Of a stretch of DNA of 12,613 bases, positions 5 to 8,165 are shown piece after piece. Numbering within the stretch: position 1 is the stretch's first letter; each line of letters opens with the position of its first letter. Origin of the DNA: an uncultured Oscillospiraceae bacterium. Its GTDB lineage: Bacteria > Bacillota > Clostridia > Oscillospirales > Oscillospiraceae. The notes beneath the pieces were generated by a model. It made no database searches, had not been told where the DNA came from, and was given only the letters and a program-made list of their open reading frames with translations. A program made the translations under genes and the position numbers. The stretch spans positions 1 through 12,613 of the forward strand of contig CAKTHW010000040.1 in NCBI GenBank assembly GCA_934565425.1, given 5' to 3'.

Positions 5-33
5 AGTATACTAAATCCACACGCAATTGTCAA
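5..33 (-). promoter_or_regulatory. Sigma-A promoter firing leftward out of the window, with a palindromic operator-like site
   Basis: On the minus strand a perfect -35 TTGACA (33-28) is followed after 17 bp by -10 TATACT (10-5). The -10 sits inside the perfect 12-bp palindrome TTAGTATACTAA at 3-14, where a dimeric repressor could bind. The gene it drives lies left of position 1 and cannot be seen. The promoter match is strong; the operator role is inferred from symmetry and position only. Confidence 0.7.
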
Positions 34-149: not shown

Positions 150-284
150 ATGACACGACAGGCTTACTTACGGCTGGTGCTGCGAATGCCCTTTGGGCTA
201 TGTTCTGAATCTTTCGCTGTCTGTCCCTACCCCGCTACCTATTATAATATAAGGAGGCTCTCTCATGCCCATCAAAATCCCTGA
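150..284 (+). CDS. Possible 44-aa leader ORF upstream of and overlapping metA
   Basis: An ATG at 150 is preceded by AAGGGAGG at 131-138, 11 nt away, and reads 44 codons to a TGA at 282-284, so it runs past the metA start by 20 nt in another frame. The predicted peptide begins MTRQAYLRLVLRMPFG and resembles nothing I recognise. It is not enriched in methionine, cysteine or threonine as an attenuator leader might be. Ribosomes translating it would cross the metA ribosome binding site, so translational coupling is conceivable. It may equally be chance: the spacing is long and there is no coding signal beyond the start context. Confidence 0.2.
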   Translation: MTRQAYLRLVLRMPFGLCSESFAVCPYPATYYNIRRLSHAHQNP

Positions 285-1221
285 CTCTCTCCCCGCCCGC
301 GCCATCCTGGAGGACGAGAACATCTTCGTCATGACGGAACACCGGGCCATCCTACAGGACATCCGCCCGTTGGAGCTGCTCATCCTGAACCTGATGCCCA
401 CGAAAATTGTGACCGAGACCCAGCTCATGCGCAAGCTCTCCAACTCCCCCCTCCAGGTGCAGGTGGAGCTGCTGCAGACCGCCAGCTACGTCCCCCAGCA
501 CATCGACCAGGATCACCTGAGCGCCTTCTATCGCACCTTCGACCAGGTGAAGGACCGCACCTACGACGGCATGATCATCACCGGCGCCCCTGTCGAAAAC
601 CTGGACTTCTGCGATGTGGAATACTGGGACGAGCTGTGTCAGATCATGGAGTGGAGCAAGGAACACGTCCATGCCACCCTGCACATCTGCTGGGGCGCTC
701 AGGCGGGGCTGTACTACCACTACGGCATCCAGAAGCACACCCTGCCGGAAAAGATGTTCGGCGTCTTCCCCCACAAGGTCATCCGTCCCCGCTCCCCCTG
801 GTTCCGGGGCTTTGACGATGTGTTCTACGCCCCCCACTCCCGTTACACCACGGTGCTGGAGGATGACATTTTGGCCGTGCCCGAGTTGCAGCTGCTGGCC
901 ACGTCGCCGGACGCCGGTGTTTATGCGGTGAAGAGCGAGGACAATCGTCGGTTCTTCATCATGGGGCACCCGGAGTACGACCCGGAGACGTTGAATCTGG
1001 AGTATCAGCGGGACGTGAAGGCCGGCAAAAAGATCGCCGTCCCCGCCCACTACTTCCCCAACGACGACCCCACTCAGCCCCCGGTGGTCACCTGGCGCAG
1101 CGCCGCCCAGCTGCTCTACAACAACTGGCTGAATTACTACGTCTACCAGGCAACGCCTTACAACCTGCGCAACGTGGGTAAGGAAGCGCCGAAGATTTCG
1201 ACCTCGTTCCTCAACAAATAA
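265..1221 (+). CDS. metA: Homoserine O-acetyltransferase (MetA family)
   Basis: This 318-aa protein belongs to the MetA family, which acylates the hydroxyl of L-homoserine as the first committed step of methionine synthesis in the cytoplasm. The family fold resembles class I glutamine amidotransferases. The catalytic triad falls at exactly the E. coli numbers: Cys142 in HICWGAQAG, His235 and Glu237 in MGHPEYDP. Residue 111, in TGAPVENLDF, is Glu. In characterised members Glu111 gives acetyl-CoA use and Gly111 (as in E. coli) succinyl-CoA use, so I predict O-acetylhomoserine as product even though homology tools often call such genes homoserine O-succinyltransferase. Start: ATG with AAGGAGG (251-257) 7 nt upstream. 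It is monocistronic, between its own promoter and a terminator at 1232-1270. No sulfhydrylase or metB gene is adjacent. Family identity is near certain; acyl-donor choice is inferred from one residue. Confidence 0.95.
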   Translation: MPIKIPDSLPARAILEDENIFVMTEHRAILQDIRPLELLILNLMPTKIVTETQLMRKLSNSPLQVQVELLQTASYVPQHIDQDHLSAFYRTFDQVKDRTYDGMIITGAPVENLDFCDVEYWDELCQIMEWSKEHVHATLHICWGAQAGLYYHYGIQKHTLPEKMFGVFPHKVIRPRSPWFRGFDDVFYAPHSRYTTVLEDDILAVPELQLLATSPDAGVYAVKSEDNRRFFIMGHPEYDPETLNLEYQRDVKAGKKIAVPAHYFPNDDPTQPPVVTWRSAAQLLYNNWLNYYVYQATPYNLRNVGKEAPKISTSFLNK

Positions 1222-1231
1222 TATATAAGGT

Positions 1232-1270
1232 AAAACGGTGTGACCGCGTGTGTCACACCGTTTTTGTTTT
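1232..1270. terminator. Terminator shared by metA (+) and trpA (-)
   Basis: AAAACGGTGTGA (1232-1243) pairs with TCACACCGTTTT (1253-1264) around a 9-nt loop. On the plus strand a T-rich tract through 1270 follows, a good intrinsic terminator for metA. On the minus strand the hairpin lies directly after the trpA stop (1269-1271) with a shorter T run, so it probably ends the convergent trp operon too. Confidence 0.85.
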
Positions 1271-5637: not shown

Positions 5638-6207
5638 TCAAACCTCCTGGATGAAATTTCGTAACATGGTCTTCCCGTCCGGCGTCAGGATGGACTCCGG
5701 ATGGAACTGCACCCCAAAGATGGGGTACTCTTTGTGCTGCACCGCCATCACTTCCCCGTCGGTGGTGCGGCCGGTGACGGTCAGGCAGTCGGGGATGGTG
5801 GCTGCGTCTGCCGCCAGGGAGTGGTAGCGCGCCACCGGCGCGATTTCCGGACACCCGCGGAACAGCGGGCAATCTAAATCAAACTGCACCTGAGACTGTT
5901 TCCCGTGCATGAGCTGCTTGGCGTAGGTGACGGTGGCGCCGAAGGCGGCGCAGATGGCTTGGTGTCCTAAGCAGACGCCCAGGATGGGGATTTCCTTCCC
6001 CAGGGTCTTGGCCACTTCCATGGTCACGCCAGCGTCCTCCGGTCTCCCGGGGCCGGGCGAGAGGATGATGCGGTCGGGGTGGAGCGCGCGAATCTCCTCC
6101 ACCGTCAGGGCGTCGTTGCGGATGACTTTGATATCCGGTTCCAGCTCTCCCACCAGCTGATAGAGGTTATAGGAGAAGCTGTCGTAATTGTCGATGAGTA
6201 AGATCAT
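5638..6207 (-). CDS. trpG: Anthranilate synthase glutamine amidotransferase component
   Basis: This 189-aa class I glutamine amidotransferase supplies ammonia to TrpE for anthranilate formation. The nucleophile is Cys79 in GVCLGHQAI and the dyad His169 and Glu171 lies in FGVQFHPESI; the oxyanion-strand segment LSPGPGRPEDAG is at 49-60. The N-terminus MILLIDNYDSFSYNL is characteristic of TrpG/PabA. No other amidotransferase gene is in the window, so it might also serve para-aminobenzoate synthase as in some Firmicutes, but the sequence cannot show that. Its ATG overlaps the trpE stop as ATGA (6204-6207), with AGGAGG 7 nt upstream. Confidence 0.97.
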   Translation of the reverse strand: MILLIDNYDSFSYNLYQLVGELEPDIKVIRNDALTVEEIRALHPDRIILSPGPGRPEDAGVTMEVAKTLGKEIPILGVCLGHQAICAAFGATVTYAKQLMHGKQSQVQFDLDCPLFRGCPEIAPVARYHSLAADAATIPDCLTVTGRTTDGEVMAVQHKEYPIFGVQFHPESILTPDGKTMLRNFIQEV

Positions 6208-7670
6208 AACGTTTCCTCCTGTGCCAGCTCCAGCGCCTTCAGGGACGCTCTGGCCTTATTGAGGCACTCCTGGTACTCGGTCTCCGGCACCGAGTCCGCC
6301 ACAATGCCCGCTCCGGAGCGGACGAACACCTTGCCGTTTTTCTTGTAGGCGATGCGGATGGCGATGCAGGTGTCCAGGTTTCCGCTGAAGTCGATGTAGC
6401 CGATGGCGCCGCCGTAGATGCCCCGCTTGTTGTTCTCCAGCTCGCCGATGAGCTGGCAGGCGCGGATTTTGGGTGCGCCGGACAGGGTGCCGGCCGGTAA
6501 GACCGCTTCCACCGCGTCCAAGGCGTCCTTGTCGGGGCGTATCTCACCGCGGACGGTGGAGCCGATGTGCATGACGTGGGAGAAGCGCTCAATGGAGTGG
6601 AATTTCTCCACTTGGACGGTGCCGAACTGACTAATTTTCCCCAGGTCGTTCCGCCCCAAGTCCACCAGCATATTGTGTTCCGCCAGCTCCTTCTCGTCCG
6701 CCAGCAGCTCCTGTTCCAGTGCCAGGTCTTCCGCCTCGGTCTTGCCTCTGGGACGGGTACCGGCCAAAGGGAAGGTGTGCAAAATCCCGTTCTCCAGCTT
6801 CACCAAGGTCTCTGGAGATGCGCCAGCCACTTCCACATCGGTGCCGGAGAAGTAGAACATATAGGGAGAGGGGTTGATGGTGCGGAGGACGCGGTAGGTA
6901 TTGAGCAGGCTGCCCTCGAAGGGGGCGCTGAGCCGGTTGGAGAGGACGATCTGGAAGATGTCCCCCTCCCGGATGTACTCCTTGGCACGCTCCACCATGG
7001 CGCAGAACTGCGCCTCATCGAACAGGGGCGTCACCGCCCCCAGCAGCTTCCCGCCAGGTTCCTCCTTCTTCTCCCCATGCCGCAGCAGCTCCGCCAGCTG
7101 GTGCAGCTCCAGCACTGCCTTGTTGTAGCCTACCTCCACGTCATCCAGGGACATATTGACGATGAGCACAATTTTCTGCCGGGCGTGGTCGAAGGCGATA
7201 ACCTTGTCAAAGAGCATCAAGTCCACGTCCTGAAACGCCTCACTGTCCTCCACCGGACACTTCACGGATGGCTCGCTGTAGGCCAGGTAGTCGTAGGAGA
7301 AGTAGCCCACCAGACCGCCGGTGAAGGAGGGCAGGTAGTCGAAGCGAGGGCTTTTGTAGTCCGCCAAGATCTGGCGGAGGTAGTCAGACGGGTTGTCGGT
7401 GTGAATCTTGAAGTTGCCCGCCCGCAGCTCGCCGTCGATGCACTTCACTTCCAGCTTGGGATCAAACCCCAGGAAGGTGTACCGCCCCCACTTCTCGTTG
7501 GCCAGGGCGGACTCCAGCAGGTAGCAGTGGGTGGATACGTTTTTGAGAATCTTCATGGTCTCGATGGGGGTGGTGAAATCGGACAGCAGCTCACAGCTGA
7601 CCGGCAGGACGTCATACTGCCCGGTGGCGGCGATGCGCTGGACTTCGGCAAATTCAGGTAAACATTTCAT
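6204..7670 (-). CDS. trpE: Anthranilate synthase component I
   Basis: This 488-aa chorismate-utilising enzyme makes anthranilate with TrpG and is the first, feedback-regulated step of the pathway. The tryptophan-binding motif LLESA is at 51-55 (Ser54 matching the enterobacterial Ser40) and the second allosteric element NPSPYMFYF at 266-274, so inhibition by tryptophan is expected. Catalytic-domain signatures include IFQIVLSNR (238-246), PLAGTRPRG (301-309), LVDLGRNDLG (335-344), GTLSGAPK (394-401) and GAGIVADS (453-460). The start is the ATG at 7670, with AAGGAGG (7680-7686) 9 nt upstream. A longer in-frame reading back to 7808 would translate the T-box terminators and is rejected. First gene of the trp operon; a T-box leader precedes it. 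Confidence 0.97.
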   Translation of the reverse strand: MKCLPEFAEVQRIAATGQYDVLPVSCELLSDFTTPIETMKILKNVSTHCYLLESALANEKWGRYTFLGFDPKLEVKCIDGELRAGNFKIHTDNPSDYLRQILADYKSPRFDYLPSFTGGLVGYFSYDYLAYSEPSVKCPVEDSEAFQDVDLMLFDKVIAFDHARQKIVLIVNMSLDDVEVGYNKAVLELHQLAELLRHGEKKEEPGGKLLGAVTPLFDEAQFCAMVERAKEYIREGDIFQIVLSNRLSAPFEGSLLNTYRVLRTINPSPYMFYFSGTDVEVAGASPETLVKLENGILHTFPLAGTRPRGKTEAEDLALEQELLADEKELAEHNMLVDLGRNDLGKISQFGTVQVEKFHSIERFSHVMHIGSTVRGEIRPDKDALDAVEAVLPAGTLSGAPKIRACQLIGELENNKRGIYGGAIGYIDFSGNLDTCIAIRIAYKKNGKVFVRSGAGIVADSVPETEYQECLNKARASLKALELAQEETL

Positions 7671-7692
7671 GGCTCTCTGCCTCCTTGTGACG

Positions 7693-7727
7693 AAAAAAAC
7701 TCCTCTGACGCTGCCGTCAGAGGAGTT
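7693..7727 (-). terminator. Second intrinsic terminator (T2) in the trp leader
   Basis: On the minus strand AACTCCTCTGACG (7727-7715) pairs perfectly with CGTCAGAGGAGTT (7710-7698) over 13 bp around a GCAG loop, followed by a run of T (7699-7693). It lies only 12 bases after the T run of the T-box terminator and just before the trpE ribosome binding site. A constitutive terminator here would block the operon, so it must leak or be controlled; see the finding on a relay helix. Confidence 0.9.
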
Positions 7728-7739
7728 GCAAACGCAAAC

Positions 7740-7780
7740 AAAAAACGCCCCTGACAGCAGAAAATCGCTTGTCAAGGACG
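7740..7780 (-). terminator. T-box terminator (T1) of the trp leader
   Basis: CGTCCTTGACA (7780-7770) pairs with TGTCAGGGGCG (7756-7746) over 11 bp including two G-U pairs, followed by six T (7745-7740). The 5' arm contains CCTTG, which is also the 3' strand of the antiterminator. The two structures are therefore mutually exclusive, as in canonical T-boxes. Confidence 0.85.
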
Positions 7781-8038
7781 AATAATCCAACATTATCCGC
7801 GGTACCACCTTGCTTCACAGGTTTCATGACCCTGTGCCCTCAGCAGGATACGAACATATCCCCGGCAAATCACGTCTGCCTCCAACGTCGCAGCATACTC
7901 CGGCCCGCAAAAGCCGTTTTCCCTGCGCCCTCCGCGGTCCATTTGACAAGTCGTGTCTCACCTGGTTCTCAGCCTCCCAAGCTCTCTGTAAAGGCGTCCT
8001 TGCCGTTATCTCCGCTTCAACGGTTTGAAGTATTGAAT
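7740..8038 (-). promoter_or_regulatory. T-box riboswitch sensing tRNA-Trp, controlling trpEGDCFBA
   Basis: The minus-strand leader carries the T-box sequence AAGGTGGTACCGCGG (7811-7797). Antiterminator: CAAGG (7812-7808) pairs with CCTTG (7777-7773), and CGGATAAT (7799-7792) with ATTATTCG (7786-7779), leaving the TGGTACC-type bulge to bind the tRNA acceptor end. Upstream, Stem I landmarks AGAGAG and GGCTGAGA (about 7986-7967) precede the specifier TGG at 7941-7939 in the context AAATGGACC, with the usual purine after the codon. UGG is read by the CCA anticodon of tRNA-Trp and fits the downstream genes. In this family uncharged tRNA stabilises the antiterminator and permits transcription, so the operon should switch on when charged tRNA-Trp is scarce. 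Stem I was not folded in detail, and the 5' boundary is estimated from the promoter. Confidence 0.93.
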
Positions 8039-8045
8039 TGCCCAA

Positions 8046-8074
8046 AGTATACCACACCCCTCCCCCGCTGTCAA
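8046..8074 (-). promoter_or_regulatory. Sigma-A promoter of the trp operon
   Basis: TTGACA (8074-8069), exactly 17 bp, and TATACT (8051-8046) on the minus strand form a near-consensus promoter, with predicted start near 8040-8036 just upstream of the T-box. The spacer is unusually G-rich. The box pair and spacing are identical to those of the leftward promoter at 5-33. No operator symmetry is seen here. Confidence 0.85.
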
Positions 8075-8110
8075 CCGGCCAGACCCCCAACCCGGCCAAC
8101 ATTTTTCACC

Positions 8111-8165
8111 AAAAAATCACGCCCCGTCCGCCCCCATTTTTAGGGATTCGGACAGGGCGTTTTTG
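8111..8165 (-). terminator. Terminator of the carboxypeptidase gene
   Basis: On the minus strand ACGCCCTGTCCG (8160-8149) pairs with CGGACGGGGCGT (8130-8119), one U-G pair, across an 18-nt loop, followed by GATTTTTT. It stands between the carboxypeptidase gene and the trp promoter and would shield the trp leader from read-through. The plus strand also shows a T run after the hairpin (with one C-A mismatch), but no plus-strand gene precedes it. Confidence 0.75.

Follow-up and report, generated by a model that had tools for sequence, protein, structure and literature searches.

The trp operon of the window (the whole 12,613-nt stretch of DNA analysed) is preceded by a T-box leader in which two terminators follow each other closely. 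This locus raises the question of how one tRNA sensor could govern both of them.

The trp leader and its tandem terminators

Along the minus strand from 8074 to 7670, the locus consists of a promoter-like site, the T-box leader, two terminators, a ribosome-binding site and trpE, in that order (Table 1). The operon behind the leader was identified with family models as trpEGDCFBA and reaches position 1269; TrpG, TrpD, TrpC, TrpB and TrpA each scored above the cut-off of their model, and TrpF was recognised by below-cut-off models only. A MetA-type gene (265-1221, plus strand) passes the NCBIfam homoserine O-acetyltransferase MetA model (485.6 vs 460.5 bits) and fails the succinyltransferase model. 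Between the convergent ends of metA and trpA lies a hairpin of 13 pairs with T-rich sequence behind it, perhaps a shared terminator (1232-1264, plus strand). A second strong promoter-like site, TTGACA-17-TATACT (11/12 matches), is found at the window edge and points outward (5-33, minus strand).

Table 1. Features of the trp leader in the window, in order of transcription.
Feature	Position	Strand	Basis
Putative promoter-like site TTGACA-17-TATACT, TG before second hexamer	8046-8074	minus	consensus scan, 11/12 matches
T-box leader RF00230	7771-8029	minus	cmscan, 73.4 bits, E 4.6e-16, model positions 1-219 of 219
Presumed specifier codon TGG (tRNA-Trp)	7939-7941	minus	sequence; specifier role presumed
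Segment 1: antiterminator 5' strand AAGG-TGGTACC-GCG with tRNA-binding bulge	7798-7811	minus	sequence, RF00230 alignment
Segment 2: CGTCCTTGACA, antiterminator 3' strand and T1 5' arm	7770-7780	minus	sequence; T1 fold -20.0 kcal/mol
Segment 3: T1 3' arm TGTCAGGGGCG (7756-7746) and loop bases CTGC (7760-7757)	7746-7760	minus	sequence, duplex, covariation
T run of T1 (T6)	7740-7745	minus	sequence
Segment 4: T2 5' arm AACTCCTCTGACG (7727-7715) and loop GCAG (7714-7711)	7711-7727	minus	sequence, terminator scan, duplex, covariation
Segment 5: T2 3' arm CGTCAGAGGAGTT (7710-7698) and T run (7699-7693)	7693-7710	minus	terminator scan
Shine-Dalgarno sequence AAGGAGG	7680-7686	minus	sequence
trpE, first gene of the operon	6204-7670	minus	TIGR00564, above cut-off

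The T-box of the window does not reach the RF00230 gathering score of 93 and is unreported at that threshold. As the trpE T-boxes of sampled relatives likewise fell below this score in 11 of 12 cases, it was treated as a weak-scoring member of RF00230. The T-box core with its UGGN bulge (AAGGTGGTACCGCG) is present at 7811-7798, and the presumed TGG specifier agrees with the regulated pathway, the operon behind it being trp. Among the leaders of relatives described below, the motif ATGG[AG][CA] occurs upstream of the core, at a median distance of 124 nt, in 129/150 leaders (enough upstream sequence). Because the strand 7780-7770 is common to the antiterminator and the first terminator (T1), the two folds are mutually exclusive. 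The antiterminator competes with a terminator, T1 with its T6 run, and not with the terminator-less sequestering of the Shine-Dalgarno (SD) sequence that marks a translational T-box. No second T-box sensor was found before the second terminator (T2), a single RF00230 match being obtained within 7600-8150 at E <= 10, and the next best Rfam match in the leader at the same threshold was to an sRNA family (26.5 bits vs a gathering score of 105).

In a preliminary description of this DNA, a perfect T2 had been placed 12 nt after the T run of T1 and a 13-pair helix had been drawn between the two hairpins. Re-reading of the minus strand gave the same spacing (7739-7728), with coordinates correct to the base, and an identical helix. 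The T1 stem is formed by CGTCCTTGACA (7780-7770) and TGTCAGGGGCG (7756-7746), and the terminator scan assigned 13 pairs to T2, seven of them G-C. In the alternative helix, referred to here as the cross-helix, 7760-7748 pairs with 7723-7711 over 13 uninterrupted positions, 11 of them Watson-Crick and two G-U (7756/7715 and 7750/7721). Its duplex energy is -25.2 kcal/mol, as compared with a mean of -16.0 kcal/mol for 200 dinucleotide shuffles of the downstream region (p = 0.005); among 5000 mononucleotide shuffles, 3 matched this energy and 34 matched the 13 continuous pairs. The pairing is therefore unlikely to be due to chance.

The proposal considered here is a tRNA-Trp T-box leader with an expression platform that works in two stages and comprises five alternating segments, of which 1 and 2 would pair as the antiterminator, 2 and 3 as T1, 3 and 4 as the cross-helix, and 4 and 5 as T2. 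With charged tRNA, segments 2 and 3 would pair as T1 and halt transcription, and for a polymerase leaking past T1, segment 4 would be free to form T2 with segment 5 and so stop the leak. With uncharged tRNA, the antiterminator would hold segment 2, and the free segment 3 would capture the emerging segment 4 while segment 5 has yet to be made. T2 would then come too late, and a single tRNA-binding event would open both locks. In many relatives without T2, the same capture element stands before the SD sequence and can hide it in several, and the relay would there control translation.

Second terminators and cross-complementarity in relatives

For comparison, trpE loci were gathered by protein similarity, and the leader was not used as a query. 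The best 80 of 588 confirmed stretches were kept from a first batch, and two families were sampled, in which TrpE matches at E <= 1e-120 were present in 74/300 and 98/297 genomes and 58/75 and 42/98 places, respectively, were taken. Removal of 20 loci without a recognisable core or with too little upstream sequence, and of 7 duplicates, from these 180 loci and the window left 154 leaders. T1 could not be parsed in four of them, among them L005 and L081, where T2 was seen by eye; the other 150 include seven repeats and hence comprise 143 distinct leaders, the window included. A fresh set was drawn later from the order (82/388 genomes with a match, 44 loci taken) and treated in identical steps; 2 duplicates, 4 loci without a core and 3 without a parsed T1 were removed, and 33 of the resulting 35 leaders are distinct. 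T-boxes of other genes from 12 of the same genomes were used as controls, 70 of the 138 listed besides trpE, mostly better scoring, being taken and 68/70 parsed.

The titles of the contigs of L001, L023, L030 and L056 name Sumerlaeota, Actinomycetaceae, Alistipes and Planctomycetaceae, respectively, yet the encoded TrpE is 73-84% identical to that of the window, and these contigs are likely mis-binned. In L010, L020, L041 and L123, the stretch from the T-box core to trpE measures 243-370 nt, as compared with about 80-180 nt in most leaders, and contains extra sequence resembling inverted repeats. A scan for trpE relatives in viral contigs found none. A search with the pattern CTGTCRRGG-N-CCTYTGRCAG matched 11/394 genomes and was not used as evidence, because the reversed pattern gave 7 hits in 6 genomes.

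A scan blind to the cross-helix identified T2 in 24/143 distinct leaders and in 5/33 of the fresh set (29 leaders together) and did not detect it in most, 119/143; the identical scan found no second terminator in the 68 T-boxes of other genes. Each of the 29 has its T1 arm pairing best on the T2 5' arm plus its loop, with some pairings extending past it. T2 kept without the cross-complementarity, the case set beforehand as speaking against a relay, was encountered in none of these 29 leaders, although the pairing passes the shuffle test in 25 and is non-significant in four (L001, 0.085; L038, 0.129; L090, 0.065; L262, 0.055).

As judged by shuffles, the T1 loop and 3' arm are complementary to the region between T1 and trpE in 65/143 leaders at p <= 0.05 and in 39/143 at p <= 0.01; the T1 5' arm, used as a control against the same region, reached these levels in 8/143 and 1/143. 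The complementarity is non-significant in 78/143 leaders, i.e. more than half. In the fresh set, it was found at p <= 0.05 in 20/33 distinct leaders. The T-boxes of other genes, parsed from model coordinates, gave 9/68 at p <= 0.05 and 4/68 at p <= 0.01, and an earlier parse, successful for 38/70, gave 6 and 1, respectively.

The preliminary description had stressed that the cross-pairing reaches into loops that neither terminator needs, and the same is seen in the relatives. The T2 loop, unpaired in the T2 stem, contributes a mean of -7.8 kcal/mol to the cross-helix, as compared with -3.8 kcal/mol for a shuffled loop, and its fit to the T1 arm is better than that of random loops at p <= 0.05 in 27/29 leaders (22/24 and, in the fresh set, 5/5). 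The mean energy is -18.18 kcal/mol with a leader's own partner and -15.97 kcal/mol with swapped partners (0/20,000 permutations, a statistic that, like those from shuffles, is inflated by related sequences). The own partner lies in the better half in 20/24 rows and ranks first in only 2/24, because the motif is so alike between leaders.

An alignment of homologous trp leaders, which had been named as a check on the alternative helix, bore it out. Over the 29 leaders, 92.5% of the cross-helix cells are paired, a percentage biased towards the cross-helix as its columns were picked from the same sequences, with shuffles and slides serving as controls; sliding the partner lowered the pairing to at most 61.6%. 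Changes on both sides were found in 8 of the 13 cross-helix pairs, and the number of such cells is 20 vs 6.5 in shuffles (reached in 0/500). All 12 T2 pairs changed on both sides, and T1, owing to a nearly invariant 5' arm, has a single pair of this kind among 13 (a value attained in 105/500 shuffles). In L038 and L104, the T1 arm CTGCC mismatches T1, yet fits GGCAG of T2; L286 has GTC replaced by GTT alongside GAC by AAC, and the window has CTGCTGTC/GACGGCAG in place of TTCTGTC/GACAGAA. Columns 41/80 hold A-U (12) or G-C (9), though G at this place makes only a G-U pair inside T1. The helix between the T1 3' arm and the T2 5' arm plus loop, on which the proposed platform depends, is thus conserved, and the comparison of sequences supports selection acting on it.

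On the TrpE tree (139 rows), T2 is scattered, with 17 changes, at least 6 of them forced by well-supported branches, and therefore does not represent one recent copy. For the tree only, L005, L012, L024, L117, L263 and L274, which have T2-like hairpins by eye and stand outside the strict count, were labelled as T2; L081, a copy of L005, carried no T2 label.

This evidence bears on one alternative, namely that T2 is a plain back-up terminator that arose by copying part of T1 and is not linked to it by a relay. There is indeed a resemblance between the 5' arms of T2 (CTCCTTTGACAG) and T1 (TCCTTGACAG), and double terminators increase repression elsewhere, according to the available text of PMC11218506. 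However, the T2 loop, partnerless in T2, stays complementary to the T1 3' arm in those 27/29 leaders, the cross-helix covaries beyond T1, T2 is scattered on the tree, and the element is retained in 44/119 distinct leaders without T2 (p <= 0.05). Moreover, with its 13 perfect pairs, T2 would shut the operon off even during starvation if nothing relieved it. A plain back-up is considered improbable.

Computed order of folding and the proposed second lock

The relay proposal had the freed T1 arm pairing with the T2 5' arm before the T2 3' arm exists, and the computed folds agree with this prediction. With the T2 loop just transcribed and the T1 5' arm held elsewhere, the cross-helix is part of the lowest-energy fold in 24/24 leaders, with 9-19 pairs, and in the window it is favoured until only about two bases of the T2 3' arm are missing. 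The computed barrier from cross-helix to T2 is 9.6-19.0 kcal/mol (16.6 kcal/mol for the window). Once the T2 3' arm is complete, just 8/24 leaders have a cross-helix that is lower in energy than T2 or no more than 1 kcal/mol above it; as T2 is usually more stable at full length, the relay would therefore have to be kinetic.

Co-transcriptional folding was followed with a crude two-state elongation model, and the expectation held in part. When the T1 arm was free, the probability of T2 was near zero in 29/29 leaders in both settings, in line with the proposal. When T1 was formed, it averaged 0.80 and 0.95 in the two settings, and with shuffled arms it was 0.62 (24 leaders, second setting). In the first setting with T1 formed, five leaders remained below 0.5, and here the window did not behave as proposed, its T2 being under-formed at 0.10, in competition with a small local hairpin. 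In the second setting, L003 and L104, also low in the first, were below 0.5, and the window reached 0.86. Taking together the segments, their conservation and covariation, and the computed energies, relay antitermination in a five-segment switch is, with good probability, the best explanation of this leader; we infer that T2 terminates transcription and is relieved by uncharged tRNA.

Many leaders without T2 retain a T1-complementary element upstream of the ribosome-binding site, in several of them within an SD-sequestering hairpin. L029 (CCTCCGG...CCGGAGG), L035 and L050 (TTTCCTCC...GGAGGAAA), L133 and L105 look like plain sequestors with a copy of the T1 5' arm in their own 5' arm or loop, the complementarity in L105 reaching p = 0.085 only. 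A usable SD place was missing in 12/150 leaders. For the 40 with a placed SD among the 44 leaders with significant complementarity and no T2, the mean cost of opening the SD fell from 3.91 to 2.03 kcal/mol with the T1 arm present, as compared with 3.80 to 3.52 kcal/mol for the same 40 with shuffled upstream sequence; in leaders without complementarity (n = 69), the values are 2.99 and 2.87 kcal/mol. The same relay may thus feed a translational lock in these relatives, as suggested by their sequences. Since the same element occurs without T2 and before the ribosome-binding site, the second lock may come in two kinds, with T2 as one of them.

The occurrence of the complementarity in those 44 leaders and the lowered SD opening cost would also be expected if the cross-helix were real and did another job, either blocking the T1 3' arm from refolding or freeing the ribosome-binding site, with control of T2 being secondary. 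However, the shift in SD opening is individually significant in just 8/40 leaders, the cost does not drop in leaders with T2 (3.98 to 4.40 kcal/mol, n = 23), and the escape from T2 in the latter would be left unexplained, making this explanation an unlikely one. Tandem regulators with separate inputs exist (PMC9481103, available text), but control of T2 by a separate signal or protein, which would turn the leader into an AND gate, is most improbable given that only 12 nt lie between T1 and T2, that the leader showed no further recognisable sensor (Rfam, E <= 10), and that the fitted loops and the covariation with T1 would go unexplained.

Extending relay antitermination beyond the window, we lean towards a general T-box relay module, in which the freed T1 3' arm would capture a downstream element imitating the T1 5' arm and one tRNA reading would set two serial locks. 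The second lock would be interchangeable in evolution, either a terminator, which multiplies transcriptional repression, or an SD sequestor, which adds translational repression. The module would be common in these trpE leaders and present in a few T-boxes of other genes.

Among other-gene T-boxes of relatives, the T1 3' arm is complementary to a stretch just downstream in L222 (CTCCTGAGCC, p 0.01), where this stretch is complementary to its own AAGGAG too, in L192 (CCCTCTGCCC, p 0.01) and in L233 (CCCTGGCCC, p 0.11, earlier control parse). The relay may extend beyond trp.

Comparison with known leaders

Like the transcriptional T-boxes of RF00230, the leader of the window has a presumed TGG specifier, a T-box core and a strand common to the antiterminator and T1; it differs in having a second terminator, the 5' arm and loop of which pair with the T1 3' arm. 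The attenuators of the enteric his and trp operons share with the window leader a ladder of mutually exclusive helices, but their sensor is a translating ribosome, and they are generally described with one terminator.

In the available text of the T-box papers, each T-box has one terminator or one sequestrator (PMC7778990, PMC7583486, PMC2494555). The preliminary description knew of no T-box with a relay, and likewise none linking T1 and T2 was found in the open literature as far as its text was available, although the main T-box surveys may hold a prior mention. According to the available text of the following sources, tandem T-boxes and riboswitches resemble the window in placing serial locks before one operon, trp included, but each lock has its own sensor, whereas the window has one recognised sensor and two locks (PMC12452182, PMC9481103). 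The rimP leader of some Gammaproteobacteria also carries two tandem terminators, but is described with inverse GGGc/CCCg motifs, a potential antiterminator and no T-box (PMC2965389). In translational T-boxes, the output is SD sequestering, as proposed for L029, L035 and L050, but it replaces the terminator, whereas in the relatives without T2 it would follow one (PMC7583486).

The nearest system is the c-di-GMP riboswitch Bc1 of the Bacillus cereus group, in which a single aptamer is likewise followed by two terminators, 28 bp apart, an arrangement within one expression platform that its authors call rarely seen (PMC11218506, available text). Two terminators behind a single sensor are known to pose a problem: upon opening of T1 in Bc1, T2 keeps its fold, so that the response is masked, and the available text reports no relay helix between T1 and T2 (PMC11218506). 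By handing the decision on, a cross-helix, which in the present leaders covaries across many genomes, would solve this simply. It would account for the combination of very low leak and full induction under one tRNA sensor, would offer a compact low-leak part, and suggests that annotation of T-boxes with one terminator per element, as in the available text on TBDB (PMC7778990), misses a second stage. The leader of the window is classed as a T-box whose expression platform is of a new kind, and not as a new family.
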